From a virus: DNA of 46,406 bases. Made by a program: the position numbers and the translations under genes. A model generated the notes under the pieces. The model saw only the letters and a program-made list of their open reading frames with translations. It ran no database searches and had not been told where the DNA came from. The DNA lies in IMG/VR virus record IMGVR_UViG_3300030098_004171, positions 1 to 46,406 of that record; one strand, written 5' to 3'. Positions 2,348 to 34,733 of the stretch are shown piece by piece (the stretch's first letter is position 1; each line of letters opens with the position of its first letter).

Positions 2348-2704
2348 ATGGCAGCGCAATGGCAGGGACGCGATGATTTTCATCGTGTTCTCGGTTGGCA
2401 TCTTTCTCATGGTTATGTGTGGAGTGGTGCTGATTCTTTCATTGTGGGCCGTCCAATCCCTCGGGATGCTTTGGGGCAAGCTGATGAGTTTATTGCCTAC
2501 GATAAAAAGATAAGCGATGTCTGGTTTGTTTGGTTGGCGGCGGGGAAAGGAGCATTTGCAAGATTTTTAGAGGTAGCACCTTTCAAGCTGCCGTATGTGG
2601 CTTGGCACAGAAACAAAGGAGAAAATCAGAAGTTAAAAGTATGGAGTTGGGATCAGTACGATCGAGTAACACAAAGATTTAGGAGAAATAACAATGGGAA
2701 CTAA
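2348..2704 (+). CDS. Conserved-looking phage protein of unknown function
   Basis: Protein of 118 residues beginning MAAQWQGRDDF. The frame stays open upstream through the acidic-repeat region, but that is an out-of-frame reading of the repeats. ATG 2348 has GGAGGTGA (2326-2333) upstream at loose spacing, and GTG 2330 is an alternative start. The protein is rich in Trp and Tyr (WFVWLAAGKGAF, LPYVAWHRN, WSWDQYDRV), which resembles a compact single domain. Placement directly before the ejection-like protein and portal suggests a virion or assembly role. No lysozyme or peptidase motif was found although the position would suit an endolysin. Confidence 0.6.
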   Translation: MAAQWQGRDDFHRVLGWHLSHGYVWSGADSFIVGRPIPRDALGQADEFIAYDKKISDVWFVWLAAGKGAFARFLEVAPFKLPYVAWHRNKGENQKLKVWSWDQYDRVTQRFRRNNNGN

Positions 2705-3527
2705 AGTAAAAAGTCCGCCCGCTAGGGATTACGGGAGAGAAACACGGGATACTTTGAATGAGCAAATTAGGCTAATGCCGGATTTGCTTAAAGCCGAGCA
2801 AGAGTTTCAACCGCAGTTTGCGCAGTTGCAGATGGATATTGCTAAAAGTATCACCCCGCAACTGCTTGATATGTATGAGGAAACTCAGCCGCGTTTAGCG
2901 GCAATGGATCGTCAGACATTAGCTGCGCAGCGTGAGGCAGACATTGCCGCCGTGGAGGATTTGGGGCCAAGAGCAATGGAAGCTCTCGACCAAATGGACA
3001 CGCAAAAGTCCGGGCTAATGAAAAAGCTAATGAAGTTAGCAGAGGAAGAAGTAGATGCAGGCGGCAGAATGACTGATAGGGAATCGAGGCAATACTCGCA
3101 AAACATTAGGAGTGTGTTGGCAGCAAGTGGATTGGGGCATGGCCCGTCCGATGCCGCTTATGAAGCTGCGGAATTGCAAATGGGAAGTGAAAGGAGGAAA
3201 GCGCAGCGGCGGCAAAATGCGATGCAAACGCTTGCCATGCGTCAGGCGACTACTGCTGATCCGTTCATGGCAATTCTTGGGAGGCCGAGTGCGGTGAATC
3301 CGATGGCGGCGGCGGCGGTGGCAGGGCAGGGGCAAGGCTACACGCCGGGGCAACTGTTCAATCCGGAGAGTGGATATGCCAATGCAATTCATGCAGGCAA
3401 CTACCAAGGTAAACTAGCAGCAAGATCGGCAACTGCGGCTAACAGGGGTGCAATGTGGGGGGCAGGGTTAAGTGCATTAGGGTCGTTTGCTGGTGCTGGG
3501 GTTGGTGATGGTGGTCGATGGAGTTAA
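2694..3527 (+). CDS. Putative internal virion / ejection protein
   Basis: Protein of 277 residues overlapping the preceding gene by 11 bases. Residues 20-190 are strongly helical and rich in Gln, Glu and Ala (for example QPQFAQLQMDIAKS, KKLMKLAEEEVDAG). The C-terminal third turns Gly/Ala-rich (NPMAAAAVAGQGQGY, AMWGAGLSALGSFAGAG), typical of ejection or pore-forming virion proteins of short-tailed phages. It sits directly upstream of the portal gene. The C-terminal Gly-rich segment could associate with membrane during DNA entry. This is an assignment by composition and context only. Confidence 0.55.
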   Translation: MGTKVKSPPARDYGRETRDTLNEQIRLMPDLLKAEQEFQPQFAQLQMDIAKSITPQLLDMYEETQPRLAAMDRQTLAAQREADIAAVEDLGPRAMEALDQMDTQKSGLMKKLMKLAEEEVDAGGRMTDRESRQYSQNIRSVLAASGLGHGPSDAAYEAAELQMGSERRKAQRRQNAMQTLAMRQATTADPFMAILGRPSAVNPMAAAAVAGQGQGYTPGQLFNPESGYANAIHAGNYQGKLAARSATAANRGAMWGAGLSALGSFAGAGVGDGGRWS

Positions 3528-3531
3528 GACA

Positions 3532-5601
3532 ATGGCTAAAGAATACGAACTAGATTTAGAGGGGTTGTACGATGAGTACACCGAGTCCATCCACTCAACG
3601 CTACTGACTCGGCGCGAGGAAAATCGGCAGCAACGGTTCAACGAATGGCCGGGGCAAAGTGGCGATGGTCGTAAATGGAAACGGAACACGGGCAAGGTGC
3701 CGGTACCGTTTGATGGGTGTAGTGACTCGCGGGTTCCGTTGGTTGATTCCTATGTGCAGGAGGATGTGGATATGCTGATGACTTCCCTGCGGCAGATGAA
3801 GGTGACGGCAAGCCCGACTGAAAGCGGGGATGCGAAGCGGGCCTTTTTAGTCAGCAATTTGCTTCGGTGGATGATGGATAACCAGATGGATGAGTTTTAT
3901 CACGAAGCTGAGTTAGCCGCGAATTACTACTGCGAGAACGGGTTGAGTGTTGTCTCTGTTCTTTGGCAGCAGGAAACGACCGCTGCCTATCGTGAGATCG
4001 ACATGGAGACGATCATGCAATGGGCGCAGCAACAACCAGAAGGCACGGCAGGGGCAAGGTTGCCTGACATTATTCTCGATCCGGAGCTAGAGGAACAAGC
4101 GATGGAGCTTGGCCGCGATCTGCTTGAGGCACCCCTTAAAGACAAGGCGATGCGCAGGATGCTTAAAGATTTGCGAGAAAAGGGGAGCGCGGTCTACACA
4201 ATGCCCGAATTGGTAAAGAACCGTCCGGAGATCAAGAGTCTGCGTGTTGGTGAGGATTTCTTTTTTCCGCAGGACACTACGGATTTGCAATCTGCACGCC
4301 GGTTGTTTTGGCGGCAGTACATGACAGCGGAGCAACTTAAAGATGCCAAGGAGGTTCGGGGTTGGGATGCGAAGTGGGTTGATGAAGTGTTGGATCGCGC
4401 CGAGGGCATGAGTAATTCTGAATGGTCAGGTGCAACTCAGCGCATCCGACATACTCGACCTGGACTGACAGATTTGGATACACGCAAACTGTATGAAGTT
4501 GTTCATGCTTTTGAGCGGCGGTGTGATGAAAACGGGGTTCCCGGTATCTACTACATTGTGTTTTCTCCGCATTGCAGATCGACCGATGGAGGCGAGCAGA
4601 TTGTGGGGCGTGAGGAATTGCTGAACTACGCGCACGGGCAGTATCCGTTTGTGGCTTTACGCCGGGAGCATTTGTCTCGTCGCCTCGATGACAGTCGCGG
4701 GTACGGTGAGGTTGCCTCTACTTGGCAGCGTCAGATCAAGCAGGAATGGGACGGTCGAACTGATCGATCCTATCTCTCGACAATGCCTCCACTCATGCAC
4801 CCTGTTGGGCGTGCGCCCAGCAAGTGGGGGCCGGGAGTAATGGTGCCGAGAATGCGACCGGATGATTATGAGTATGCTGACGCTCCCCGTGTCGATAGTG
4901 GCTCAAAGGAGATCGAGCAGACGGTGCAAGAAATGGCAGATCGATACTTTGGCAGGCCGATCGGCAAGGAGAACCAGTTTTACTCCCGCATGAGGCAGCA
5001 AGGAATGGTTGCCAAGTGGTTGAAGTATTGGTCAGAGGTTTGCGATCAATGCTTTCAGTTGGTTCAGCAATTCATGCCTGACGAAATGTTTTTCCGTGTG
5101 GTTGGTTCGCGGCAAGCCGAGCCGATCCGCGTAGGCAGGGATGAAATCCAAGGCCAATACGATGTTCAGATTAACTACAACGTGGCTAATCTCGACATGG
5201 AGTTGGTGAAAGAGAAGTTAGGTCTACTGAAACTGGCGATTGAGTTTGATGTAAACGGAGTGGTGGATCGGACAACGGCAATGGAAGTGTTGTTTGAGTT
5301 TATCGATCCGCAGCTAGGCGAACGTATGTTGCGACCGCAGGAGGAAGCGAGTCAGCAGGAGATCGAGGACGAGCGTACTGCGTTTGCACAGATCGCAGCG
5401 GGTGCCGATGTGGACATTAAGCCGGGGCAGGCACATCAGTTGCGATTGCAAGAGTTGCAACAGTTGGCGAGCAGTCCAACGGCACAGCAGGCGATGCAAA
5501 ACGATCCAAGTTTGCAGGAGAGAGTCATTAAACGTGCGAAACAGCATGAGCATCAGCTTCAGCAGGCTCAAAATGCGCAAATAGGACGTTTAGGGGCATA
5601 A
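3532..5601 (+). CDS. Portal protein
   Basis: Protein of 689 residues starting MAKEYELDLEGLYDEY; ATG 3532 is preferred because 3487-3531 would encode a hydrophobic run overlapping the upstream gene. The N-terminal region has WPGQSGDGRKWKRNTGKV followed by PFDGCSDSRVPLVDSYV, the typical portal entry with a substrate-like SRVPL stretch. Length and the long helical, Gln-rich C-terminus (from about 600) match portals of P22-like podoviruses. A dodecameric ring at the capsid vertex is the family role: it threads DNA during packaging and binds the head-tail adaptor. It is unusual that this gene lies some 20 kb from the terminase genes and is separated from the capsid genes by the fibres. Confidence 0.75.
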   Translation: MAKEYELDLEGLYDEYTESIHSTLLTRREENRQQRFNEWPGQSGDGRKWKRNTGKVPVPFDGCSDSRVPLVDSYVQEDVDMLMTSLRQMKVTASPTESGDAKRAFLVSNLLRWMMDNQMDEFYHEAELAANYYCENGLSVVSVLWQQETTAAYREIDMETIMQWAQQQPEGTAGARLPDIILDPELEEQAMELGRDLLEAPLKDKAMRRMLKDLREKGSAVYTMPELVKNRPEIKSLRVGEDFFFPQDTTDLQSARRLFWRQYMTAEQLKDAKEVRGWDAKWVDEVLDRAEGMSNSEWSGATQRIRHTRPGLTDLDTRKLYEVVHAFERRCDENGVPGIYYIVFSPHCRSTDGGEQIVGREELLNYAHGQYPFVALRREHLSRRLDDSRGYGEVASTWQRQIKQEWDGRTDRSYLSTMPPLMHPVGRAPSKWGPGVMVPRMRPDDYEYADAPRVDSGSKEIEQTVQEMADRYFGRPIGKENQFYSRMRQQGMVAKWLKYWSEVCDQCFQLVQQFMPDEMFFRVVGSRQAEPIRVGRDEIQGQYDVQINYNVANLDMELVKEKLGLLKLAIEFDVNGVVDRTTAMEVLFEFIDPQLGERMLRPQEEASQQEIEDERTAFAQIAAGADVDIKPGQAHQLRLQELQQLASSPTAQQAMQNDPSLQERVIKRAKQHEHQLQQAQNAQIGRLGA

Positions 5602-5729: not shown

Positions 5730-6920
5730 ATGGCAAGATACAGTTACTTTAGTGGTGGGGGGAGCGGGATTTCACCGTTGCCACCTAATTTTGCGCAGTT
5801 AGCGACTGCGGGGCCAGCGGCGATCGCGCAAGGCATGAAAGAGGCAAGCCAAGCCATTGGTGATGCGCTTAAAGAAAAGCAGAAGGCGGCAAAGCTAAAA
5901 AAGAAGGAGGCAACGTCAGCGGTAAATTTAATAAAAGCGCATTTAGCTAATGAGTCACAACTCGCATCATTAAAAGGAATAGATATTGATGATCTCGATA
6001 ACATGAGTAGTGATGACCAAATTGCTTTGGGTGGGCAAGTGGCAGCAGAAAGGCAGGCTCAAATTACTCAATCATCTTTAGATACTGCCGAGCAAAATCG
6101 ATTAAGCGCGGTGGCAGCGCAAAACGAAAAGGCCGACACAAACCGCATGATAAATGAGATCATGCGAAATCCAGATGCTATGCAGGCGATATTGCCAATG
6201 GCAGGAGATGCAAATATGGCTCAAGTGTTGCAGGCTAGATTAAGTCAGGCGGCAGGCGATCGTGCGCAAGGTACTTACGGAATGGCAGTAGGTGCCGATG
6301 CTAGGGATGCCGAAGCACACGCAAGGGCGGGTGAAAAGCACGCCAGAGAGATTGCAGCTTTAGATGCAGCAGCGGCAGGGCCAAAAGCAGGGACAACTTT
6401 TACTGATCCAAGTGTGCCGGGTTTTGTTGGTATGCACACAGGAACAGGGGCGGTGACTACTGTTAGAGGTGGCGATAGGCAAGTTCCTGAATCCGCTTTA
6501 GACGCAGCTAGGAGGGTAAAAATAGAAACAGAAACTGGTTTAATAAAACAAATTTATGGTGATCCAAGTACGGTAGATGAGCAAAGATTAAATCTGTCAG
6601 CAAGTGATAAAGATAGGGTTAAAAGTTTGAAGGCAGATTTGCAAATTGCTGAAGATAATTTAGCCATGATTGAAAAACTCGGTAATGATGCCCCGTTTGT
6701 TAATTATGATGGTGATCTAATCAATGAGGATAAGAGCAAAAGGCAACAGAGTGACGCTGAAACATGGACATGGGGTGAAATGTCGTCCTCGGCAGCCAAA
6801 ACAATGGAAGAAAGAAAAGTAAGAGATTTAAAACGTCAAATAGCTGAAATCACCGGGCAAGCAATAGCTGAAGAGTTGGAAGAGGAAGATGAAAACGACA
6901 GGATGGGATTATATCGATGA
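5730..6920 (+). CDS. Putative internal virion protein
   Basis: Protein of 396 residues. After a Gly-rich start (FSGGGSGISPLPP) it is nearly all helical, rich in Ala, Gln, Lys and Glu, with coiled-coil-like stretches at about 35-60 (ALKEKQKAAKLKKKEA), 100-135 and 290-315. It ends in an acidic run (EELEEEDEND). Such proteins between portal and a giant ejection protein are usually packaged inside the head and delivered with DNA. The gene overlaps the giant gene in an ATGA junction, supporting co-production. No enzyme motif is visible. The 128-base gap upstream holds no supported gene. Confidence 0.6.
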   Translation: MARYSYFSGGGSGISPLPPNFAQLATAGPAAIAQGMKEASQAIGDALKEKQKAAKLKKKEATSAVNLIKAHLANESQLASLKGIDIDDLDNMSSDDQIALGGQVAAERQAQITQSSLDTAEQNRLSAVAAQNEKADTNRMINEIMRNPDAMQAILPMAGDANMAQVLQARLSQAAGDRAQGTYGMAVGADARDAEAHARAGEKHAREIAALDAAAAGPKAGTTFTDPSVPGFVGMHTGTGAVTTVRGGDRQVPESALDAARRVKIETETGLIKQIYGDPSTVDEQRLNLSASDKDRVKSLKADLQIAEDNLAMIEKLGNDAPFVNYDGDLINEDKSKRQQSDAETWTWGEMSSSAAKTMEERKVRDLKRQIAEITGQAIAEELEEEDENDRMGLYR

Positions 6921-9900
6921 GTGATGTAATTGAAAGAGTACGCAAAAAGTATCCTGAGTACGATAAAGTAAGTGATGAAGAGTTAACTTATCGTGTAGGT
7001 AAAAAGTATCCAGAATACTTAAAGCGCGATCCTCAATTCAATGAGGATTTTAAAAACATAGACCGTCGTGTTCGTAAGATTCAGTTGGAGCATGAGATGC
7101 GGGAAGTGCGCAAGCAGGGTTTGCGTCAAGATTTAGCAATTGACTTACAGTTTCCAGAACCGACTGAAGAGGGGAATGCCTTATCACAACTTGGCTACGG
7201 TCTTTACGGTGGGTTAGTGAGGGGTGCCGAGGGTATGTACAAAATAGCTGAGTCTGGTGAGCGTGCGCTGGGGAACGAGCGGAGGGCTAATTTCTGGAAG
7301 CAAATGGCAGCGGAACGCGGAGAAATTGCTGCTGACATTGATACAGTAGCCAGAGCGACAAAAGGTGCGCCTTTTGCTAGATCGCTTGGGCAGGGTATAA
7401 CGAGTTTGGCTCCGACATTGGTAGCGGCACCAACCGGCCCGTGGGGTATGGCAATCGCAGCGGGAGCGCAGTCTTATGGTCAAGGATTGGCCGATGCCGA
7501 GCGTGCGTACAAAGCGCAAGGACTGTCAGATGAAGAGGCATTTAAGAAAGCGCAAGGCCCCGCGTTATTTCAAGGTTTGGGAACGGCATTAATCACTCGC
7601 GGCTTTATGAAAGCCGGGGGTGGTTTTGAGGAAGCACTTTTGATGAGTGCTGTTGGCCGCGCCACTTTTAAGGAGATAGCCAAAGGTGTTTTCAAGCATG
7701 GAGGTTTGGAGGCAACGGAAGAATCATGGAACCAATTGTATGATTCTATTGTTCGTAAAGCTACCTATCAGCCAGACCTTACTTTTGAAGAGGCAATCGA
7801 GCAGATCGGTGAAGCGGGAGAGATTGGCGGCATACTGGGTGCCAGTATGTATGGTGTTCGCCAAATTGATGCTGCGCGGCAAGGTAAAGCGGCAGCAGCA
7901 GCAGAAAGTGAGGTAATAAAAACAATTTCCGATGCGGAAGCATTGGAGCGATCAATGCCAGCAGGATTTGCTGGTGAGCCAGAGGCAACGCTTGATACAC
8001 CGAAATGGAAGGAAGCAGGAACGAGTTTACTTGAAGGGGTGCCGGTGCCAGAGAAGTTGGGCAAGGGCGAAACCTTTACTGTTAAATTTAAGAATGAAAG
8101 TGGGCAGGACGGAGTTATTGAGTTTGGCGATCAAGCTACGCGATTGACGATCGAGCGTGGATTAGCTGCGTCTGGTGCCAAGGAAATTACGGAGGTAAAC
8201 CAGTTTACGCCGCCGACAGAAGAAGAAGCTAAAGCAGCAGAACCAGCACCGGAGCCTGCCCCGGTAGCGGAACCAGAACCGGAGCCTGTCCCGGCAGCGG
8301 AACCAGAACCGGAGCCTGCGCCAGTAGCAGAACCGGAACCGGAGCCTGCCCCGGTACCGGAAACCCAAGAAGAGGTGGAAGATGATTATGAGCTTACTCC
8401 GGAAGAAGCGGCGTTGGAGGCTGAAGCGTATGCGGATGAGGTTGCGCAGGATGTTGAGCCTGAGCCTGTTAAAGAGGAAACGGCTTTTGAAAGATTTGAA
8501 AGAGGATCAAGAAACAACATTGAGAAAGCAGGGGACGATCCAGCCCGCAAGGCGCAAGCAGCATTCGTAGTTAGAGAAAGCTGGAAGTTTGAAAATACTA
8601 CTCAAGAATTTCAGGATTACGTTAACGGCATAATAGAACAAGCGGAGAATCTTGGTCTCGAAATTAGGGATGCGTTTGGCGAGAAATGGGTAGAAGGAAT
8701 TGTTGCTGAAGCTGAATTTGTACCAGCGTCAGAAAAAGATGAGCATCTGCGCCTTGAGGACGGCGAACACAGAGTTGTTAAAAGAGTCTTTAGGCCTGCA
8801 ATATTTCAGGATGGTAAGTTAATGGGGGGTAGTTTACTGCCTTATTACGAGGTGATAGTATTTGGGCCGAAAGCGCAACCAGAAGAAGATAAAATTTCAG
8901 AAGAAGAGACTGATGAGCGAATTGAAGATGATGGATCTCCCGTGGTGGAGCAGCAGGCTGGAACATCTGAAGGAGATGGAACCGGAGCTACTGAAGCACC
9001 TTTGGGAGAGCAACAAACTGACGGAACACCTCGACCAGACGACGAGGCGAGCGCAAGACCTGTATCAGACACTCCAGAACAGGGGGCAACGGTCGAACGA
9101 GGCGAGGGAGATCGTCCAAGCGGAGATCGTGAGTCCCGATCCGGAGAGGGACGAGATCGAGCCACTACCGGAGAACCTACTGCGTCAGATCGAGGCGTGG
9201 GAGGACAACCTGAGCAGTTAAACAACTACGTTATTCCGGAAGGAGAAGAAACATCTCCAACGGGTAAGGTTTCCAAGGCGCGGGCCAACATTAAAGCAAT
9301 CAAATTGCTCAAGCAACTTGAGCAGGAGAACCGCGCAGCGACAAGTGATGAGCAAAAGGTTTTAGCGCAGTATTCCGGATGGGGGCCAATCCAAGAAGCG
9401 TTTTCCACAAAAGGAGTAACCGGGGAGAGCGATAGTTGGAACAGGCAATGGAAACCCATTTATAAGGAGTTAATTGAATTACTTGATAACAATGAATACA
9501 AGGCAGCGCGAAACTCTCTTTTAAATGCACACTACACATCCACCAAGGTCATAGGTGAAATGTGGAAGGGGTTGCGTCACCTTGGTTTTAAGGGAGGGCG
9601 TGTGCTTGAGCCTAGTGCTGGGGTGGGGCATTTCTTTGGGATGATGCCGCAGGACATGGCATCTAATTCTAGGTTGTGGGGTGTTGAACTGGATTCAATT
9701 TCTGCGCGTATCCTTAAAAAGTTGTATCCCAATGCGCAGACCTTTGAGGGAGGGTTTCAAGATGCAAACATCAAGAACAACTCAATGGACTTGGTGATTG
9801 GAAACGTGCCGTTTGCCAAGGAGGGTGTTCAAGACAGTCGTTATCCGGATTTCAGTTTGCATAATTACTTCTTTGCCCGATCGGTTGACGCTTTGAAGCC

Positions 9901-12900
9901 GGGAGGGTTGATGGTTGCGATTACTTCTGAATCAACAATGGATGCTCCAATATCCAAAGAGGCTAGGGAGTACATTGCTGAACGTGCTGATTTGGTTGGG
10001 GCAATACGCTTGCCTAACACGGCATTTAAGGAGAATGCGCAGACGGAGGTAACAACTGACATACTGGTGTTTCGTAAGAAAACGGGTCAGCAATTTAAGC
10101 AGGCGAACGATTTTATTGATCTTGTCATGGTTAAGACGCAGGACGGTACCAATAAAGATTTTCCCGTTAACGAATACTATGCCAAGAAGCCAGAGATGTT
10201 GCTGGGACGCTTGAGCCTTGAAGGGAAACTGTATGGCAGGCCGGGGGATCAGCGTGCCTTGTTGCCGTTTGAACAGGAACCAGAACTTCCTCCGTTAATT
10301 GAAGAGGCATTTCAGAAGATGCCAAGGGCAGTAGTTGCGGAAGAGACTCACTCATACGAGAATGAAACTGAATTTGTTGAAGCAGACAAGGAAGTGGTTG
10401 GTCGAATTGGTGCCTTGGTGCAAGTACCGGATGCAAAGAATCCAAAATTAACACACTTAAAAATCCAAGGTGAAAACACTTTGTTGGATTTGCCAAAAGA
10501 CGCATACAAGAACTCGGCACAGTTAAAGAGGTTGAATGATTATGTTGTTCTTAAAAATGCGGCACAAGCGATGGTCAGGGGTGAGCTTGATCCGGAGAAA
10601 ACCACAGAGGAGCTTGATGTTTTAAGAAAGAATTTAAATGCGGAGTACGATAAATACTTTAAAAAGCATGGATCGGTTAATGGCAGGAAGAGTGCGTTTA
10701 TTTGGCAAGTAGACGTTGATTTCCAGCAAGTTGCTGGGCTTGAAGATGTTCGCACCGAGTTTGTGGAGCAGACAAAGGATGGTGTAACGAAGGTTGTGAG
10801 CAATGATGTGGTTAAGAAGATGCCAATCTTTGAAAAGCGCACCAATTTCCCGCGCAAAGCCCCGGTTACGGCTGAAACTCCCGCTGACGCTTTAACAATC
10901 AGCATGAGCTACAAGAATCATGTTGATGAAAATTATGTCGGGCAACTGCTGAATACGACACCGGAAGGTGCGCGGGCGAAGTTGTTGGAAGAGGAATTGG
11001 TGTTTGAAAATCCCATAAGTGGATTATTGGAAACTCCTAGTGAATATCTTTCTGGCAACGTAAAGCGTAAATTACGGGAGGTGCAGGCGGCAGTTGAGTC
11101 GCAACCGGAACTGGCGCGAAATGTAACTGCTCTTACCGAGGTGCAACCGGAACCTATTCCGGTTGAGCAAATTGGGTTTAGGTTAGGCAGCACATGGATC
11201 GATCCAATGATCGTAAGTCGGTTTTTGCGTGAGGTGTTGGATGTGTCTGGTGATGCCCATTACATTAAGGAAACAGGAAAATGGCGTTTAAACATATTTA
11301 ACCGGTATAGTGAAACGAACCAGAAGGTTTATGGTTTTTCAGAAGGGGGATTAGATGGTGCGGAATTAGTTCAGTATGCTTTAAATCTGAAAGAACCAAC
11401 TGTTTACGATCCTCCTGCCGATGGGAAGAAAGGCAGGGGTACAAAGAATGCGCAGAAAACCATTCAAGCTGCGCAAAAGATACAAGACATTCAAGCTGCC
11501 TTTAAGGAGTGGGCGTTAAAGGATCGCGAAGCAGCAAAGAGTATTTTTGAAACCTACAATGAAAATTACAACGGAACACGTTTACGTGAGTACGATGAAC
11601 CAGATTTTGATTATTACCCCGGTGCAACAACGGAATTGCAGTTACGTCCGCACCAGAAGCGTGCTGTAAGTCGGATTTTGCAGGGTAGCACATTGCTGGC
11701 TCATTCTGTTGGCACGGGCAAAACCTTCATTATGGCTACTGCTGCAATGGAGATGAAGCGACTTGGAATGGCAAATAAGCCGATGATCGTTACATTAAAT
11801 GCTGCCCTCGATCAGTTTACCAAAGAGTTTAAGCAACTCTATCCAGCGGCAAACATAATGATGCCAAACAGCAAGCAAAGAGATGCAAAGAATCGGCAGC
11901 GTACAATGGCACAGATTGCCACGGGTAACTGGGATGCTGTTATCATTCCGCAGTCTTTTCTGGATATGCTTCCTGACGATCCAAAACGGGAAGCGGAATA
12001 CTTGGAAAAGGAATTGGTCAATCTAGCCACGGCAAGAATCAAAGCCGCACAGGAGGAAGGTAAATCCTCTCCAAAAGTGAAAGACTTGGTAAAAGCAGAG
12101 CAGCAATTAGAAGCAAAAATTAAAGATTTAAAATCGTTAAAAATTAAAGATCGAGGAATGACGTTTGAGGAAACTGGTGTTGATGCGTTGCTTGTTGATG
12201 AAGCCCATCGATACAAGAAACTCCAGTTCCAGACTCAAATGGGCAACATTAAGGGGATAGATAGAAGCGCAAGTAAACGTGGCTTGTCCATGTTGATGAA
12301 AACGCGATGGGTGCAGGAAAACAATGACGGTAAAAATGTTGTTATGGCAACCGGCACGCCAATATCCAACACGGTGGCTGAAGCGTGGAACTTCATGCGA
12401 TATATCAATCCCAAGATGTTAAAAGAATATGGGATGGAAAACTTTGACAGTTTTGCGTCTTTATTTGGGGATACGGTGTCAGGCATGGAGTTGACCGCTG
12501 GAGGCACATGGAAAGTGGTGCAACGATTTGCCAAGTACACGAACGGGCCTGAGTTGATTGCTGCGTTTAGGACGATCGCAGACGTTATCACACAGGAAGA
12601 GGTGCCGGGGTTGAATTTGCCGCCATTAAAAGGGGGGGAGCCTACGAACATCATTGTGCCTCAAACAGATGGTGTTGCGGAAGAGATTGCAGACATTCGG
12701 CTTCAGTTGGAGAAGTTTGAAAAGATGTCTGGTCAGGAAAAGAAAGATAACAGTCATATTCCGCTTGTCTCGTTTACGAGGGCAAAGAAGGCGGCGATTG
12801 ACATAAGGTTAATCAATCCGCTTGCAGAGGATGAGCCAGATTCAAAGGTAAACAGGGCAGTAGATAAGATTCTTGAGATTTACCATGCTGAAGAGGCGAA

Positions 12901-15900
12901 TAAAGGCACGCAGCTTGTTTTTTCTGATGTTTACCAAAGTCATGTAGAGGGATTAACAGAGAAGGAGCAGTTTAATGTCTATGATGATTTAAAAAGTAAA
13001 CTGGTTGCTGCTGGGGTGCCTGAAAACAGTATTGCCACGCTTGGGCCAAAGATAACTGAAGGGCAAAAGAAAATCATAGGTGAAGGCATAAAATCTGGAG
13101 AGATACGAATTGCGATAGGTTCAACTGAAAAGTTGGGGACAGCTTTAAATATGCAGGATCGGATGGCAGCGTTGCATCATTTGGACGCACCGCCGCGCCC
13201 GATGGATATTGAGCAAAGGAATGGACGTATTTTGCGGCAGGGTAATCTTTATGGTGAAAGAGATGAAAACCAAAACTTAAAGTACGGTGGGATTGAGATT
13301 GTTACCTATGGCATGGAGAACACATTGGATTCAGCCATGTTTCAAAAGTTAGCCACCAAGCAAAAGTTCATTAATCAGATATTGCGTGGGGATTTGCAAG
13401 GCAGGGATTTTGAGGATGCCGCCAATGAAACTAGCCTAACATTTGAGGAACAGATGGCAGCGTTTAGTGGTGATCCTGCTGCGATGCAACGTGTTGCTTT
13501 GGATCACGAAATACGATCGCTAGAAGCGTCCAGAAACACATTCGTAAGAAGTAAGCGTGAGGCTAGGGAAACACTAAATGAATTAGTTGAAGAAAAGATA
13601 CCGCTACTGGAGAGGCAGATAGAGGAAGCGAAAGAGATCGCTGAAAAGATGCCATCGAGCGTTGAGGAAATTGATGGGTTAGGTCGCGTCACAACTGATC
13701 CTAAAAAGTTTTCAAAGGAATTTGATAGAATAATTGCAGCAGCACTTGTTGATGCGCACGAATCAGCTAGAAAGAAGGGGTACACCATTAAGTCTGCTCA
13801 TTTTACCAAGGGGCCGACATTGCAGATCAATGGTTTTGAAGTGACAACTTCAGTAAAAGGCACATGGGATGGTAAAAACAATGATTGGGTAAAAGACACA
13901 ACGCCGCAGCTTCAATGGAGGTTTACGCATAAATTACTGGAAAACACGATTGGAGCAGCAACTACGGGTGTTGGTTTGTTGAGTAGTTTAAACGGCAAAA
14001 TAAAGCCTATTGAAAATTTGCCAGCAATTAAGGAGGCGGCACTTGAAAGGGCTAAACGTGACAAGGTGGCGTTGGAGGATACGGTAGACAAAGAATGGCC
14101 CAAGCAGGCTGAGTACGATAAAGCGCAAGGTGATCTCGCTCGATTGGATGAAGAGTTAAGGAAAAGAGGTGAAGACCAGCAAGAAATTAATGATGCGGTA
14201 GATCGAGGGAATGAGGCATTGGATCAAGAAGAGAAACCCAAGGGTATGCAAATCAAACCCCGCCCAGGTGGTGGGCAAGGAGGTTTCATTCGTTTGGATG
14301 TGATTCGTGATCTTGGCATCAAGGGTAAGGATTTATTTAAGAAAGGTTTCACCGTTTTTGCTGGTTGGGCCAAGGCGATGAAAAGTGTGTTTGGAGATCG
14401 TGTTGGCAAGTATCTCGATAAAGTTTGGAACAGGATAAAGCGCGATGAATTTGCCGATGAAAACAATTTGAGTCCGGATGGAGTTGCGGCAAAGCATCGG
14501 ATCGAGGGAACTGAAAAGGTTGATGAAGAGAAAAAGCCAAACTACGCGACCCCGTTAAAAACCAGACTGTTGGAACCGTTTCGCAGGCAATCCACCAAGA
14601 TTGTCTACTACGGTAGCGAGCAACTCCTGCGTGAGAAGCAGGGTTTGGAAATGATGGGGATGTACCAAGCTGCCGCCATTAAGCAGCAGGCAGACACTTT
14701 GGAGAAGAAGCTATGGGAAAGTCGCCCCGATGAATCCGGATGGTCGCTACCTGACTTTTTGCGCAAGGGAGCGTGGGCATCGAGGATCAAGGAGTTTAAG
14801 GGTAAAGCGTTGCCTCTGGCGGCACATCTAAACGTCACGGGCATTGATGAGGATAAGAAATTCATTTTCACGGACTTTGAAATGCGTGCCGGGATAATGA
14901 GTGCCAAGCAGTTTAAAAAGGGGGAGCATAATGTTGGCGATGTAATCATGGTTAAAAACCCGTTGACCGGTGAGCAGGATCAACTGGTTATTGATAATTT
15001 CATTGAGACTAGAGACGGGAGGCGCGGTTATCAGTTGTTGCGTGAAATGCCTGCTGATTTGCAGGAGGAACTCTACAATCACTACACGCAAGTCGAGTAT
15101 CCGGAGTTTGCGTGGTTTATCGATACGTTCATTGATCCCGGCTTGAAGGATGTGAGGCAGGAAGTGGCAGGCGTCGAGGTGCCGGTGTTCAACCGTTTTT
15201 CTTTAGCCTCAATGCTGGCTGAAGGCACGGGAGAGTTTAATGCCATTGATGCGTACACGCCCGATGTGGTTGTGTCGCGTAGTTTATGGGGTGCGGCGCG
15301 GCAGGCATTAAGACTGCGATCCGGAGTGCGATCTGCCGGGAGACGGTACAAGACGGGTAAATCACGGGAAGAGGGCAAGGTGCTTGATCTGTTAAGTGGT
15401 TTTAATGTGCGTGCCTTGCAAGCTGCGCAGGAAAAGTCGCGTAAACGGTGGTTAAAGTCGGTAGTGGAAAACGCTCGATCTTTTAAAGGTGAAACGCCAC
15501 CGGAAGGTTATGTAGACCTTGAGTCGGGCCTGACGGAGATTTGGAAGGCGATCAAGGCAGTCCGAGGGTGGAATATGCCGGTCGATCCAAAGACCGGTGA
15601 GCGAGTGTTTCCGGAGACGGAGGATCGTTTGCAGGAGAAACTCGATAAAGAGGCATTTGAAGCCTTTAAGAAGGAAGCGTTTAAACTGGCAGGAGGCAAG
15701 AAAGCGATTCCGAAACCGTTGATGGATGCTTTAGTGAAGCAGTACGCGCAACAGCAATCGCCTCACGCGATTTTAAAGGTAATGGGGTATCTGCTTCGGC
15801 AGTCGAAAGGATTGTTCCTGTTCGATCCTGTTACGGTTGTGGGTAACTTGGGTGCTAATGAGTTTTTTGCTTTGGAAGCTGAATTTCATGCCGTCACCAG

Positions 15901-17608
15901 CGGGATGATAAAGGCAATGTCAGGAGACTTGCAGGGGGCAGGGCAGAAATTGAGATTTGCCCGTAATCTTTTCGCGGGTCAGTTAATCAATAGATTTATT
16001 GGGGCGAGAAAATATCTTCCCGGTAGAATCGGTAAAAACAGTCATTACTTGGACGCGATCCAGACGGTGTTACCGGATGAACTGTTTGCTGATTCCACGC
16101 GGTTATCTGATTTCAATGTCAGGTTTGACCAGAAATGGCATGAAATGTTGAGGCAGGGTGAATTAGCCGGTGCTGCCTTGCAGATGATTCAATACGGCAA
16201 CATCGATGTTCGGGCTAAACAACGTGTAGCCTACGCGATGCTTAAAGCCTCGGCAGTTACCAAGGGCAGGGCAAAGAAACTCCGTGGGCGCGATTTACGG
16301 GCCTATGTGACGGAGTACATGAAGAACCCGCCCGTGCAGGACAGATTGCAGGCAGTCAATGCTGCGCAGTTTGAAATGTTAAACTACGCAGATTCTCCCG
16401 ATGCAATTAACAAGTTGGTCACGAATGATTTTGGTGCATTGATCTCTGCGTTTCCCCGTTTTGGTGCTGCTTTTATGGCCAAGCAAAAGGATCGATTATC
16501 CGCGCTTAAACTGTTCATGGGCAAAGTGCCAAAGGGTCAAAGGGCAGATGCTTTTGCAGATATTTTAACGGTGGGAATGTTTGGGCTTGGTGGAAGTGGT
16601 GCCGTTGTGATGGCACTACGAGCTTTACTAGGTGATGAAGAGGAGGATGATCCTCGATCATATATTGGATCAGCAACCAAGATCGTGGATAAAGGTTACG
16701 GGCCTGAGCGTGAACGGTTTGAACCAGAACTCATAACTGCTAATCGTATGAATCTGTCCTACTGGGCTAGGTTGGCAGGGATCGATGATGGGGATGATAC
16801 CGATTTTTGGATGCGAACGAGGCAATATCCTGCCATCGGAATGGCCGGTGCTTTAATCATGGGCTGGAATGACGCAAAGCGTTACGGGGCTGATGTAGGT
16901 TTGCAAACATGGGGTCAAATGGTTGGGGAACTTGGGGGTGAGTTTATTTCGTTTGGAGCAGGAGTGCGTGTTCCAATTAAAGGAATTATGGATTGGCAAT
17001 CGGGTTTTGATCGACCGGTAGCGACTCCGGTTGATCCGTTTGCTGGATCGGTGCCGTTTTCTTTTTACATCACGGACGAATTCATGGGGGCGTTTATTCC
17101 CGGTCAACGGCAGTTTGACAGATTGGTAGCTTACGTTGATCCAATTTATCGCAGGCCAACGAGATCGAAGGAACTTGGGTATGATCCCGGCGTGATCGAA
17201 GCGTTTCGCGCAAGTCATTTCACCGGGCTTTTAGATCGGATCGCAGTACAGCAGGGGTTGATTGATCCGTTGCCGCCAAAGGGTGCCGTCGAAACCGTGA
17301 GTAAGTTTCCTAGTTTTAATTTGGATTTTAACTCACGAAAGCGTGCTGAATTGTTTGAAGAATCACGAAGGAGTCAAACTACACGCGATTACACGAAGTT
17401 TACCAAGCGGCAAGATCGGTATGGGGATGAATATCTAACGCAGCAGAATTTAAATGCGTTTATTCCGGAAGAAAACATTAGACGTATGCCGTGGGAAACG
17501 CAGGCATCGAGTTTAGGTGGCTTTAACATTCGACCGTATCCGCGCTCGGAGATCGAAGAGGCATTGAAGTCGAAACAATTGCCGGTGCGGCCAAGTTTAC
17601 TTCGATAA
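6917..17608 (+). CDS. Giant polyvalent protein: DarB-like N6-adenine methylase + SNF2 helicase fused to ejection-protein regions
   Basis: A 3563-residue protein, 23% of the genome. Residues 1-50 carry the RKKYPEYDKVSDEELTYRV type of motif found at the start of phage ejection proteins. Gly/Ala-rich hydrophobic stretches lie at about 160-235, a PEPEP proline repeat at about 440-485, and acidic linkers to about 770. The methylase core has VLEPSAGVGHFF (896) and GNVPF (963-966 NVPF), followed by GAIRLPN. The helicase has GTGKT (1599-1603), DEAH (1761-1764), ATGTP (1811-1815) and QRNGRILRQG (2100-2109). The C-terminal 1100 residues resemble large polyvalent protein domains, for example near 2459-2495 and 2957-2985, with a hydrophobic segment near 3217-3240. 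In phage P1, DarB is packaged and injected to protect DNA from type I restriction. That function here is inference from architecture and neighbours. Confidence 0.85.
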   Translation: MSDVIERVRKKYPEYDKVSDEELTYRVGKKYPEYLKRDPQFNEDFKNIDRRVRKIQLEHEMREVRKQGLRQDLAIDLQFPEPTEEGNALSQLGYGLYGGLVRGAEGMYKIAESGERALGNERRANFWKQMAAERGEIAADIDTVARATKGAPFARSLGQGITSLAPTLVAAPTGPWGMAIAAGAQSYGQGLADAERAYKAQGLSDEEAFKKAQGPALFQGLGTALITRGFMKAGGGFEEALLMSAVGRATFKEIAKGVFKHGGLEATEESWNQLYDSIVRKATYQPDLTFEEAIEQIGEAGEIGGILGASMYGVRQIDAARQGKAAAAAESEVIKTISDAEALERSMPAGFAGEPEATLDTPKWKEAGTSLLEGVPVPEKLGKGETFTVKFKNESGQDGVIEFGDQATRLTIERGLAASGAKEITEVNQFTPPTEEEAKAAEPAPEPAPVAEPEPEPVPAAEPEPEPAPVAEPEPEPAPVPETQEEVEDDYELTPEEAALEAEAYADEVAQDVEPEPVKEETAFERFERGSRNNIEKAGDDPARKAQAAFVVRESWKFENTTQEFQDYVNGIIEQAENLGLEIRDAFGEKWVEGIVAEAEFVPASEKDEHLRLEDGEHRVVKRVFRPAIFQDGKLMGGSLLPYYEVIVFGPKAQPEEDKISEEETDERIEDDGSPVVEQQAGTSEGDGTGATEAPLGEQQTDGTPRPDDEASARPVSDTPEQGATVERGEGDRPSGDRESRSGEGRDRATTGEPTASDRGVGGQPEQLNNYVIPEGEETSPTGKVSKARANIKAIKLLKQLEQENRAATSDEQKVLAQYSGWGPIQEAFSTKGVTGESDSWNRQWKPIYKELIELLDNNEYKAARNSLLNAHYTSTKVIGEMWKGLRHLGFKGGRVLEPSAGVGHFFGMMPQDMASNSRLWGVELDSISARILKKLYPNAQTFEGGFQDANIKNNSMDLVIGNVPFAKEGVQDSRYPDFSLHNYFFARSVDALKPGGLMVAITSESTMDAPISKEAREYIAERADLVGAIRLPNTAFKENAQTEVTTDILVFRKKTGQQFKQANDFIDLVMVKTQDGTNKDFPVNEYYAKKPEMLLGRLSLEGKLYGRPGDQRALLPFEQEPELPPLIEEAFQKMPRAVVAEETHSYENETEFVEADKEVVGRIGALVQVPDAKNPKLTHLKIQGENTLLDLPKDAYKNSAQLKRLNDYVVLKNAAQAMVRGELDPEKTTEELDVLRKNLNAEYDKYFKKHGSVNGRKSAFIWQVDVDFQQVAGLEDVRTEFVEQTKDGVTKVVSNDVVKKMPIFEKRTNFPRKAPVTAETPADALTISMSYKNHVDENYVGQLLNTTPEGARAKLLEEELVFENPISGLLETPSEYLSGNVKRKLREVQAAVESQPELARNVTALTEVQPEPIPVEQIGFRLGSTWIDPMIVSRFLREVLDVSGDAHYIKETGKWRLNIFNRYSETNQKVYGFSEGGLDGAELVQYALNLKEPTVYDPPADGKKGRGTKNAQKTIQAAQKIQDIQAAFKEWALKDREAAKSIFETYNENYNGTRLREYDEPDFDYYPGATTELQLRPHQKRAVSRILQGSTLLAHSVGTGKTFIMATAAMEMKRLGMANKPMIVTLNAALDQFTKEFKQLYPAANIMMPNSKQRDAKNRQRTMAQIATGNWDAVIIPQSFLDMLPDDPKREAEYLEKELVNLATARIKAAQEEGKSSPKVKDLVKAEQQLEAKIKDLKSLKIKDRGMTFEETGVDALLVDEAHRYKKLQFQTQMGNIKGIDRSASKRGLSMLMKTRWVQENNDGKNVVMATGTPISNTVAEAWNFMRYINPKMLKEYGMENFDSFASLFGDTVSGMELTAGGTWKVVQRFAKYTNGPELIAAFRTIADVITQEEVPGLNLPPLKGGEPTNIIVPQTDGVAEEIADIRLQLEKFEKMSGQEKKDNSHIPLVSFTRAKKAAIDIRLINPLAEDEPDSKVNRAVDKILEIYHAEEANKGTQLVFSDVYQSHVEGLTEKEQFNVYDDLKSKLVAAGVPENSIATLGPKITEGQKKIIGEGIKSGEIRIAIGSTEKLGTALNMQDRMAALHHLDAPPRPMDIEQRNGRILRQGNLYGERDENQNLKYGGIEIVTYGMENTLDSAMFQKLATKQKFINQILRGDLQGRDFEDAANETSLTFEEQMAAFSGDPAAMQRVALDHEIRSLEASRNTFVRSKREARETLNELVEEKIPLLERQIEEAKEIAEKMPSSVEEIDGLGRVTTDPKKFSKEFDRIIAAALVDAHESARKKGYTIKSAHFTKGPTLQINGFEVTTSVKGTWDGKNNDWVKDTTPQLQWRFTHKLLENTIGAATTGVGLLSSLNGKIKPIENLPAIKEAALERAKRDKVALEDTVDKEWPKQAEYDKAQGDLARLDEELRKRGEDQQEINDAVDRGNEALDQEEKPKGMQIKPRPGGGQGGFIRLDVIRDLGIKGKDLFKKGFTVFAGWAKAMKSVFGDRVGKYLDKVWNRIKRDEFADENNLSPDGVAAKHRIEGTEKVDEEKKPNYATPLKTRLLEPFRRQSTKIVYYGSEQLLREKQGLEMMGMYQAAAIKQQADTLEKKLWESRPDESGWSLPDFLRKGAWASRIKEFKGKALPLAAHLNVTGIDEDKKFIFTDFEMRAGIMSAKQFKKGEHNVGDVIMVKNPLTGEQDQLVIDNFIETRDGRRGYQLLREMPADLQEELYNHYTQVEYPEFAWFIDTFIDPGLKDVRQEVAGVEVPVFNRFSLASMLAEGTGEFNAIDAYTPDVVVSRSLWGAARQALRLRSGVRSAGRRYKTGKSREEGKVLDLLSGFNVRALQAAQEKSRKRWLKSVVENARSFKGETPPEGYVDLESGLTEIWKAIKAVRGWNMPVDPKTGERVFPETEDRLQEKLDKEAFEAFKKEAFKLAGGKKAIPKPLMDALVKQYAQQQSPHAILKVMGYLLRQSKGLFLFDPVTVVGNLGANEFFALEAEFHAVTSGMIKAMSGDLQGAGQKLRFARNLFAGQLINRFIGARKYLPGRIGKNSHYLDAIQTVLPDELFADSTRLSDFNVRFDQKWHEMLRQGELAGAALQMIQYGNIDVRAKQRVAYAMLKASAVTKGRAKKLRGRDLRAYVTEYMKNPPVQDRLQAVNAAQFEMLNYADSPDAINKLVTNDFGALISAFPRFGAAFMAKQKDRLSALKLFMGKVPKGQRADAFADILTVGMFGLGGSGAVVMALRALLGDEEEDDPRSYIGSATKIVDKGYGPERERFEPELITANRMNLSYWARLAGIDDGDDTDFWMRTRQYPAIGMAGALIMGWNDAKRYGADVGLQTWGQMVGELGGEFISFGAGVRVPIKGIMDWQSGFDRPVATPVDPFAGSVPFSFYITDEFMGAFIPGQRQFDRLVAYVDPIYRRPTRSKELGYDPGVIEAFRASHFTGLLDRIAVQQGLIDPLPPKGAVETVSKFPSFNLDFNSRKRAELFEESRRSQTTRDYTKFTKRQDRYGDEYLTQQNLNAFIPEENIRRMPWETQASSLGGFNIRPYPRSEIEEALKSKQLPVRPSLLR

Positions 17609-17659: not shown

Positions 17660-17744
<85 letters not shown>

Positions 17745-18696: not shown

Positions 18697-18720
18697 AATT
18701 TGCACAAATTTTGCACACGC
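18697..18720. repeat. 24-bp direct repeat, copy 2, abutting integrase start
   Basis: Identical to 18410-18433. It ends five bases before the integrase ATG and occupies the place where a Shine-Dalgarno would be, so a bound protein could block transcription or translation initiation. Confidence 0.7.
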
Positions 18721-18725
18721 TTTTT

Positions 18726-19958
18726 ATGACCAAATACAACAAAAACAAATCCTTCAAATACAAAGGTATTACTATTCCACTACAAGATCGTAAGGGAACT
18801 TATTCGATTAACAAGATGATCGAGGGGGAACATATCCGTCAATCGCTTGGCACATCGGATTTTGAGACTGCAAAGCAGTTGGCGATGAAGCTGATCCAAG
18901 CCCGGTTGAATCCGGATGGTGTGCAGGACGCGCCGATAAAGCGGAAACGGCGAGAACCGACAACTGCAACTTTCCAAGAGGTTTGGGATTGCCTTGTTAA
19001 CGCCGAATCTCTCGATTGGAGTAAAGATACCAAGCGTGCCTACTACACGAATGTTCGCGGGATAATTCATTATTCAACTGGACTCGATTACGATGAGTGC
19101 TTTAAGCAACGACTTTCAATAATGACGAAGAAATCTTTTTTTGTTAACGCGCAGGACAACATACTGCGCGGCGTGACGGACAAGCTGGAACGTGATTCTA
19201 AAAAGGAATCGATGAACTCGATGTTGACGGGCCTACGGTCTTGGTTCGGTAAGAAGGTCATGGCCAAGGGTATCCTCGATGATTTGGTGCTGCCCGATCT
19301 GACGGTGCTGCGCTCGATCCCTAAACTTCCTGTGTTCAAAAAAGACACTTACACAATGCCCGATCACAAACTGATGAAGGACATTGTGAGCAGATTGCCT
19401 GAGTTGCTTGAAACGTATCCCCGCGCTTGGGTTGCGTTCCACACAACAATGGATACGGGTTTGCGTAAGCAGGAGGTTAAAGATCGTAAATTTGGTGATT
19501 TTATTGAAGGTGAAGATGGTAATTGTTTTCTTCGATGTGGTCACACAATCGATCATATCAATAAGGGAAAGAAGGAGCGGTTGATTCCTGTTTCTCCCAC
19601 ATTAAAAACTAAAATTCAGCAAGTTCATTTGTCGAACGGTTGGCCATGTACTGATGATGATTATATTTTACCGATCGGGAAACGTGGTGGCAAAAACACA
19701 ACCAATTTTAACGACGACGAACAGGGCGAACGCGGTTTCCGTAGGTTGGCTCAATTTATGAAAGAATGCGGTTGGACGCGGAAGCAGAAGGCACATGAAT
19801 TGCGTAAGATTTACGCTTCATGGGCGTGTCGTGAGCATGGGGTGTATGCGGTTAAAGAGGCAATGGGGCATAGTAATCTATCCACGACTGAGCGTTATGC
19901 TGAAAAGCCACGGGTGGGTGTTACGGAGGTTGGCTTGCAATACGTTCAATCAGCTTAA
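18726..19958 (+). CDS. int: Tyrosine-type site-specific integrase
   Basis: Protein of 410 residues. ATG 18726 (MTKYNKNKSFKYKG) is used; an earlier TTG at 18711 lies inside the direct repeat. The N-terminal region resembles arm/core-binding domains (GEHIRQSLGTSDFETAKQLA). The catalytic set is visible: Arg247 in DTGLRKQE, a Lys in KKERLIPV, His357 and Arg360 in HELRK, His382 in GHSN, and the nucleophile Tyr391 in TTERYAE. The protein would recombine attP with the bacterial attB to integrate and, with an excisionase, excise the phage. Direct repeats upstream may be its own binding sites, which would allow autoregulation. A strong bidirectional terminator follows. Confidence 0.93.
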   Translation: MTKYNKNKSFKYKGITIPLQDRKGTYSINKMIEGEHIRQSLGTSDFETAKQLAMKLIQARLNPDGVQDAPIKRKRREPTTATFQEVWDCLVNAESLDWSKDTKRAYYTNVRGIIHYSTGLDYDECFKQRLSIMTKKSFFVNAQDNILRGVTDKLERDSKKESMNSMLTGLRSWFGKKVMAKGILDDLVLPDLTVLRSIPKLPVFKKDTYTMPDHKLMKDIVSRLPELLETYPRAWVAFHTTMDTGLRKQEVKDRKFGDFIEGEDGNCFLRCGHTIDHINKGKKERLIPVSPTLKTKIQQVHLSNGWPCTDDDYILPIGKRGGKNTTNFNDDEQGERGFRRLAQFMKECGWTRKQKAHELRKIYASWACREHGVYAVKEAMGHSNLSTTERYAEKPRVGVTEVGLQYVQSA

Positions 19959-33400: not shown

Positions 33401-33717
33401 TGGCTGAAATTCTGATACCAAAATTCGGGAAGCACGGGCGGGCTGCCGCCCGTGCTGACCGTATGTTGCGTGATCCGGAGGTTCATCAAAAGTATGTTGA
33501 AGCTGAAAAGATCAAGTACAGAGGTAAAGCCGCAAATATCTTCAAAAAATATAGAGGCTATAAACCTAATCTTAAATCTGAGTTAAGATTAGAGGGGGTT
33601 GTCGATTTGCGCACATGGTTTAGGTGGCAGCAACAAGACCCCTACTTTTGGCACGACGATAAAAACGTCAAAAAGTTTTTTAAAGACAACAAGGAAACGC
33701 AACCGTGGAAACGATAA
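33400..33717 (+). CDS. Hypothetical virion-region protein
   Basis: A 105-residue, strongly basic protein (KHGRAAARADRMLRD, IKYRGKAANIFKKYRGYK) with a Trp/Phe-rich end (RTWFRWQQQDPYFWHDD). It lies between the decoration protein and the head-tail adaptor and overlaps both. A small head-completion or DNA-contacting protein is plausible. The family is not recognised. Confidence 0.55.
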   Translation: MAEILIPKFGKHGRAAARADRMLRDPEVHQKYVEAEKIKYRGKAANIFKKYRGYKPNLKSELRLEGVVDLRTWFRWQQQDPYFWHDDKNVKKFFKDNKETQPWKR

Positions 33718-34733
33718 GATATAGTGATTTACTGAAGCGTGTTGTTTCCTTGTCTCAACGTGTTTACGAGGAATTAAGTGCCGACGATAATGCGGCAATC
33801 AAATCCTATCTCGATACACGACTTAAACAAATTTGGGAATTTTACCCGTGGCCGGACTTAACCCGTGTTGAGAAGCGTTATTTTCGATTGCTTTATAACG
33901 CCTCTACAAGCTACGCGGCGGGCGCGGAGGTATATTATCCTACCGAGAAAAAATACTACCAAGCCATTCAGTCCACCACGGGTAATACCCCAACTACTTT
34001 AACGCATTGGGCTGAATCCAAACAAAAGTACAATGCCGATCTTTGGGTGGCGGGTGCCGCCTATGCTGCCGGTGATATTGTTGAGTATGCCTCTGATGGG
34101 CTTTTCTACGCCTGCCACACGGCACACACATCGAGCGGCACTTTGATTCCCACCGCGACAAGCGGCAATGCCCGATGGGGCGTGCTTACTGAACTGGATA
34201 AGTACGTTGCTTGGGAGCAGGACGGGAATAACCAAATAGGGGATGTAATCGAGGTTTGGGACGCTGATCCGCGTACCCATACAAAAGCCGAGACAGAGAA
34301 TTTCTTTCAGAGTGAAAACGGTGTTCAAGTCATTGACGGGCCTAACATTGTTTACATCGAGTATAGGCAAGTGGTGCCAAATATATTCTATGATAGTTGG
34401 GTGAGCGGAACTGATTACAAAAAGACTAACGCAGTAAGGTGGCCAACTACTGGTGCAGACTTTGATTTGTACGAGGCAAAGACAGTCCATACCGCATCAA
34501 GCAGTAATGATCCCGGTGATGGAACTGCGGATTGGGGTATTGTGAATATACCAAGGGATTTTAGGTCGTTTCTCGCGCACGGTGCTGCCGCTGATATTTT
34601 AATATCCGATGAAAAGGAAAGACTTGCCGGTATTCAACAAAGTCTGGCTGATAAGGCATTGGCAGACTTGGTGGATAAATTTGAAAGGCAGGAGGGTCAA
34701 ACACGGCAAATGCGTGTGAAGATTTACCGTTAA
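33705..34733 (+). CDS. Head-tail adaptor / tail tubular A-like protein with inserted chitin-binding-like repeats
   Basis: Protein of 342 residues. The N-terminus (YSDLLKRVVSLSQR, DTRLKQIWEFYPWPDL) and C-terminus (PRDFRSFLAHGAAADILI, GIQQSLADKALADLV) match adaptor proteins of short-tailed phages that bind the portal. Three modules are inserted at about residues 68-105, 114-157 and 232-277 (YAAGAEVYYPTEKKYYQA; WVAGAAYAAGDIVEYASDGL; WVSGTDYKKTNAVRW). Their W-x-x-G-x-x-Y-x-x-G-D-x-V pattern is that of CBM5/12 chitin-binding repeats. They could project from the tail collar and bind host polysaccharide. Confidence 0.75.
   Translation: METIRYSDLLKRVVSLSQRVYEELSADDNAAIKSYLDTRLKQIWEFYPWPDLTRVEKRYFRLLYNASTSYAAGAEVYYPTEKKYYQAIQSTTGNTPTTLTHWAESKQKYNADLWVAGAAYAAGDIVEYASDGLFYACHTAHTSSGTLIPTATSGNARWGVLTELDKYVAWEQDGNNQIGDVIEVWDADPRTHTKAETENFFQSENGVQVIDGPNIVYIEYRQVVPNIFYDSWVSGTDYKKTNAVRWPTTGADFDLYEAKTVHTASSSNDPGDGTADWGIVNIPRDFRSFLAHGAAADILISDEKERLAGIQQSLADKALADLVDKFERQEGQTRQMRVKIYR

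Follow-up and report, generated by a model that had tools for sequence, protein, structure and literature searches.

In JC1, CsCl-purified virions yielded 51 unique peptides of the giant DarB-like protein gp69 (PMC9144972), and P1 DarB is located in the head, the N-terminal 30 residues of the protein being sufficient for capsid targeting (PMC9024508). P1 DarB has also been reported to protect DNA in cis, and the class as a whole was proposed in 2017 to be co-injected and to work by a methylase-motor mechanism (PMC5512222). The locus described here belongs to the virus record IMGVR_UViG_3300030098_004171, the 46,406 bases of which are the window of this work. It is dominated by a single gene for 3,563 residues at 6917–17608, taking up 10,692 of the 46,406 bases (23.0%) in one uninterrupted frame, as the preliminary description had stated. 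The frame is kept in a second virus, G006, with 51% identity over 2,945 aa, and the giant is therefore not a chance ORF. The features of the locus are the following.

2694..3527, + strand: 277-aa protein, the locus marker, kept in relatives
3487..5601, + strand: probable portal, 704 aa; homologues lie between TerL and the major capsid protein (MCP) gene in L100–L118 and L138
5730..6920, + strand: 396-aa protein directly upstream of the giant; its first ~60 aa are conserved in all payload types
6917..17608, + strand: giant DarB-like gene, 3,563 aa, with an ATG start, a single ORF without internal stop
6917..7087, + strand: N-terminal tag, aa 1–57, a compact helical segment (HMM, leave-type-out test, pLDDT)
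7097..8206, + strand: lineage-specific helical N-terminal body, aa 61–430, only in the window, G006 and L156
8207..9223, + strand: Pro/Glu-rich linker region, aa 431–769 (sequence)
9224..10276, + strand: LPD36-like and N6-adenine methylase domain, aa 770–1120 (alignment, M.TaqI match; end approximate)
9605..9634, + strand: methylase motif I, LEPSAGVGHF, aa 897–906 (alignment of 92 relatives)
9800..9814, + strand: methylase motif IV, GNVPF, aa 962–966 (same alignment)
11624..13531, + strand: SNF2-type ATPase/helicase, aa 1570–2205 (Pfam, PHROG, alignment, PDB profile; limits approximate)
11702..11725, + strand: helicase motif I, HSVGTGKT, aa 1596–1603 (alignment of 92 relatives)
12194..12208, + strand: helicase motif II, VDEAH, aa 1760–1764 (same alignment)
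13214..13243, + strand: helicase motif VI, QRNGRILRQG, aa 2100–2109 (same alignment)
13697..17605, + strand: C-terminal module, aa 2261–3563, no family match (iterated search, Pfam, PDB)

The record contains an SU10 major capsid protein, TerL, a head-closure-like protein, a DnaB helicase and an integrase, and by its gene content appears to be a temperate podovirus whose capsid is of the SU10 type. The giant is encoded among virion genes, in the same orientation as the 396-aa gene, the end of which is overlapped by its start by four bases (6917–6920). The position directly after a portal and an internal protein, given in the preliminary description, was confirmed in the order portal, 396-aa protein, giant; a profile search gave no match for the portal, which is assigned by its position in relatives, and the 396-aa product is a probable companion ejection or internal protein. 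The probable portal gene has been relocated: G006-type and other relatives have it between the TerL and MCP genes (11925–13991 in L138), the window lineage between the 277-aa and 396-aa genes, more than 20 kb from TerL. An intact tRNA-Tyr(GTA) (17660–17744), possibly an attachment-site tRNA or a cargo tRNA, is found between the giant and the integrase gene (18711–19958); L147, L149 and L155 likewise have an integrase homologue behind their giant. The product of 39669–46169 (2,166 aa) contains a Laminin_G_3/lectin-type domain (E = 1e-34) and, in its N-terminal part, a head-decoration-like stretch; it is probably a tail protein or one that binds surfaces. Just after the capsid gene (33705–34733) a 342-aa protein is encoded with a weak match to the carbohydrate-binding family CBM_5_12 (E = 7e-5, below the cut-off). 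Portal relatives (27–33%) were also present in genome contigs, with no related giant in the contigs examined, and their MAGs (Verrucomicrobiota, Opitutae, Lentisphaerae and Deltaproteobacteria) do not fix the host.

Residues 659–2425 of the giant match PHROG 10089, 'DarB-like antirestriction' (E = 0, 1,466 bits), the Pfam families Eco57I methylase, ResIII and SNF2 all exceed their curated cut-offs, and a PDB search with a profile of ten relatives returned M.TaqI (6e-8) and ISWI-type remodellers (8e-6). The order of the dyad, a TaqI-type N6-adenine methylase followed by an SNF2 ATPase, is that of DarB-like polyvalent proteins, and across the core (aa ~770–2260) the identity to the giant DarB-like proteins found in many podoviruses is 31–38%. 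Helicase motif III (ATGTPISNT) and motif V are also present, as is a threonine cap, HYT(S), without the proline, at aa 871–875; the LPD36-signature region aligns but reads GWGP, GWG[GAS] being found in 87 of 92 relatives. Among the 92 aligned relatives, motif IV is N[VIF]PF in 47 and NPPF in 45; the NVPF form, common to about half of them, is thus no sign of decay. PHROG, Pfam, PDB and motif evidence therefore bear out the complete N6-methylase core with GNVPF and the SNF2-type helicase with all main motifs that had previously been read in the giant. The fusion of the two is likewise real but not novel, since it is of a known kind, published in Bcep22-like phages, JC1, Parlo and others and present in hundreds of viral contigs: the core is matched by 115 records of isolated phages, in 51 cases across 80% or more of its length, and by at least 558 relatives in viral contigs.

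The regions outside the core behave differently in searches. Isolated phages, searched with the window giant at the DNA level and with its end regions, gave no match for either end, and single-sequence peptide scans of the N- and C-terminal regions against viral and genome contigs returned nothing; residues 178–314 show weak similarity to the VvAW1 giant (E = 5e-4), and no relatives of residues 541–700 were found. Relatives of the locus were reached with the neighbouring portal, TerL and 277-aa genes as bait, the ends of the giant finding none. The closest of them in viral contigs, with the portal as bait, have portal identities of 75–81% and the same order as the window (277-aa gene, portal, a gene of ~280–420 aa and a giant). 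None of the giants of these sisters (G001, G002, G003 and G008) contains the DarB methylase/SNF2 core. Those of G001, G003 and G008 represent one type, with an HExxH motif and, as read by Pfam in G003, a Strawberry-notch-like helicase and RadC; the G008 protein is complete at 3,282 aa, that of G003 is longer than 2,919 aa, and that of G001 is split into pieces of 521 and 2,759 aa, which lie at contig ends. The G002 (L096) giant, of 2,549 aa, combines HExxH with a C-terminal LPD38 and has a middle part without assignment; its reading by eye as an ADP-ribosyltransferase was not confirmed in later checks and was dropped.

The more distant G006 (portal 58%, TerL 65%) carries a giant of the window type, whose N-terminus and upstream genes could be read from L156 and L168, contigs of the same species (99.9% DNA identity). 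A tree of the portals joins the window to the G002 group (100/100) and these to the G001/G003 group (86/84), leaving G006 outside. The payload type thus does not follow the portal, and this distribution requires that one payload replaced another, whichever the direction, a claim that covers six viruses (the window, G006, G002, G001, G003 and G008), all represented by contigs and not by isolates. In wider relatives, for which the 277-aa gene served as bait (L165, L166, L170 and L173), the slot holds a giant of 1,383–2,101 aa after 277-aa-type and ~500–670-aa genes, with LPD38 in three of the four. A weak ART-PolyVal match and HELFH occur in the L170 giant (8076–13562), and HESFH in that of L167 (12801–15020); there are probably more kinds of payload than the three treated here. 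What the lineage conserves is the slot and not the DarB payload, sister phages holding other payloads there, and what is new is the architecture, the slot and the short tag being shared with the closest relatives but the payload not.

When the giants of all three payload types were aligned, only the first ~50–57 residues were common to them. A profile built from six of these tags and searched against the 22,281 ORFs of all loci fetched gave significant matches at the N-termini of giants only, and recovered one sequence from outside the building set, the N-terminus of the DarB giant L049, which belongs to a separate lineage (E = 1.8e-5). A profile made without the window type ranks the window tag over all unrelated ORFs (E = 0.0036, versus 4.5 for the best false hit), and the reverse test holds more weakly (E = 0.011–0.37, versus 0.52). 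Among isolated phages the tag gave no significant match. AlphaFold predicts short helices for aa 1–50 (pLDDT 80–85) and low confidence for most of the next 310 residues. As to the 'ejection-protein-type ends' attributed to the giant in the preliminary description, a link to other giants was found for the first ~50 residues but not for the C-terminal end. The last ~1100 residues had been called polyvalent-protein-like, a label without support from profiles: the C-terminal ~1,300 aa gave no match to Pfam LPD, PHROG or PDB profiles. An iterated search with the module found only G006/L156, so that it is found in two virus species in all. The zincin HExxH, LPD38 and LPD39, which other members carry, were sought in the window giant and not found. 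A kinship of the module with LPD38, LPD39 or the sister C-termini was rejected, hhalign showing no relation, a match to a Microcystis phage giant (E = 0.06) was not accepted as evidence, and the AlphaFold model of the C-terminal 1,134 aa was unusable (pLDDT 34).

The last ~1,100 aa of the G002 giant have 37 homologous targets, among them the C-termini of DarB giants such as VvAW1, L049 and BcepIL02 and those of the non-DarB giants L165, L166 and L173. From these homologies it follows that the tag and DarB core occur with two C-terminal modules (window and L049), and that one C-terminal module occurs with and without the DarB core. To judge from these sequence relationships, the slot would be modular, with an N-terminal tag, an interchangeable enzymatic middle and an interchangeable C-terminal module.

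Taken together, these data make it fairly likely that the giant is a polyvalent, virion-packaged and ejected protein of a modular slot, the SNF2/methylase dyad of which, or simple occlusion, blocks restriction. Packaging and ejection are suggested by the late-gene slot, the shared tag and the published mass spectrometry of homologues; the giant may serve antirestriction, as its homologues and slot indicate, with DNA methylation as the putative protective step. The reading is weakened by the missing zincin, LPD38 and LPD39 parts, by the GWGP signature and by the absence of significant tag matches among isolated phages. The first ~50 residues would direct the giant into the procapsid, and its exit from the particle would accompany or precede that of the DNA. 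Once inside the cell, the SNF2 motor would travel along the entering duplex while the TaqI-type methylase modifies adenines or, alternatively, the giant would simply occupy the entering DNA; in either case restriction enzymes (type I, by analogy with P1 DarB) would be unable to cut in the first minutes. A temperate SU10-capsid phage would accordingly have, among its late genes, a slot for ejected giants of variable payload, now holding a payload of the DarB type.

It is unlikely that the giant is packaged while its dyad acts in the capsid, in DNA entry or in transcription and not against restriction; for DNA entry, a translocase would pull the genome into the cell and methylation would be incidental. 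The large N- and C-terminal modules unrelated to catalysis agree with such a role, and one sister type swaps the dyad for another DNA translocase, the Strawberry-notch-like helicase, so that a genome-internalising motor fits as well as antirestriction. Nevertheless, the G002-type giant has no recognisable translocase, so the slot seems not to require one, and P1 DarB is known for antirestriction and not for growth as such. It is very unlikely that the likeness of the tags reflects convergence or a common helical motif, with unrelated giants merely occupying one hotspot. The modest E-values of the leave-type-out tests (0.002–0.4) and the unrelated remainder of the N-terminal bodies would be compatible with it, but tag-bearing giants outrank all other of the 22,281 ORFs in both directions and always at the N-terminus, the upstream genes are homologous across types, and the independent L049 was recovered at 1.8e-5. 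Least probable of the three is a cytoplasmic, early or prophage-expressed giant that is not packaged and modifies phage DNA or hinders competitors: the gene does lie at the edge of the late module, adjoining the tRNA and the integrase, but it is co-oriented with, and directly follows, the probable portal and the 396-aa gene with the four-base overlap, its homologue JC1 gp69 was detected in virions, and its N-terminal tag is conserved.

A further proposal, to which we give somewhat less than an even chance, is that one conserved ~50-residue N-terminal address loads and injects interchangeable giant enzymes (methylase-SNF2, Strawberry-notch-like helicase with RadC, and others) from a single late slot, the window version having a new 1,300-residue C-terminal module. 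If true, this would be a natural plug-in protein delivery system. A tag acting as packaging or ejection address would offer a direct view of the way in which podoviruses bring very large enzymes into their heads and out through a narrow tail, and of the match between payloads and the host defences they are directed against. The same payload with varying ends, and one tag with varying payloads, constitute a natural experiment separating delivery from function.

Among known systems, the giants of Bcep22-like phages (BcepIL02 gp70, JC1 gp69), LASTA, PEp14 and VvAW1 resemble that of the window in the core (32–38% over ~1,500 aa), and those of LASTA, BcepIL02, PEp14, VvAW1, a Bacteroides phage and others, of 3,640–5,553 aa, mostly follow a ~300–650-aa gene in the late module, as the window giant does. 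The N- and C-terminal modules, however, cannot be aligned to the Bcep22-like, LASTA, PEp14 or VvAW1 giants, and in contrast to these giants the N-terminal 769 aa of the window giant have no domain match and the C-terminus has neither LPD38 nor LPD39. P1 DarB, compared by domain order, shares the methylase followed by an SNF2-type domain, likely the antirestriction role, and offers a precedent for an N-terminal packaging signal; it differs in being a ~250 kDa protein of a myovirus with DarA, Hdf, DdrA, DdrB and Ulx, none of which was found among the window proteins scanned with PHROGs, a scan that covered part of the small ORFs. The N4 virion RNA polymerase (gp50) is likewise a ~3,500-aa enzyme that travels in the particle of a podovirus and has distinct regions for injection and for encapsidation, although the enzyme itself differs from that of the window giant. 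As in the polyvalent proteins of Iyer et al. 2017 (PMC5512222), a multi-domain giant with mosaic domains is encoded near virion genes and predicted to be co-injected; unlike them, the window giant matches no LPD domain in Pfam, and beyond them, sister phages show payload exchange at a single locus while sharing the tag.
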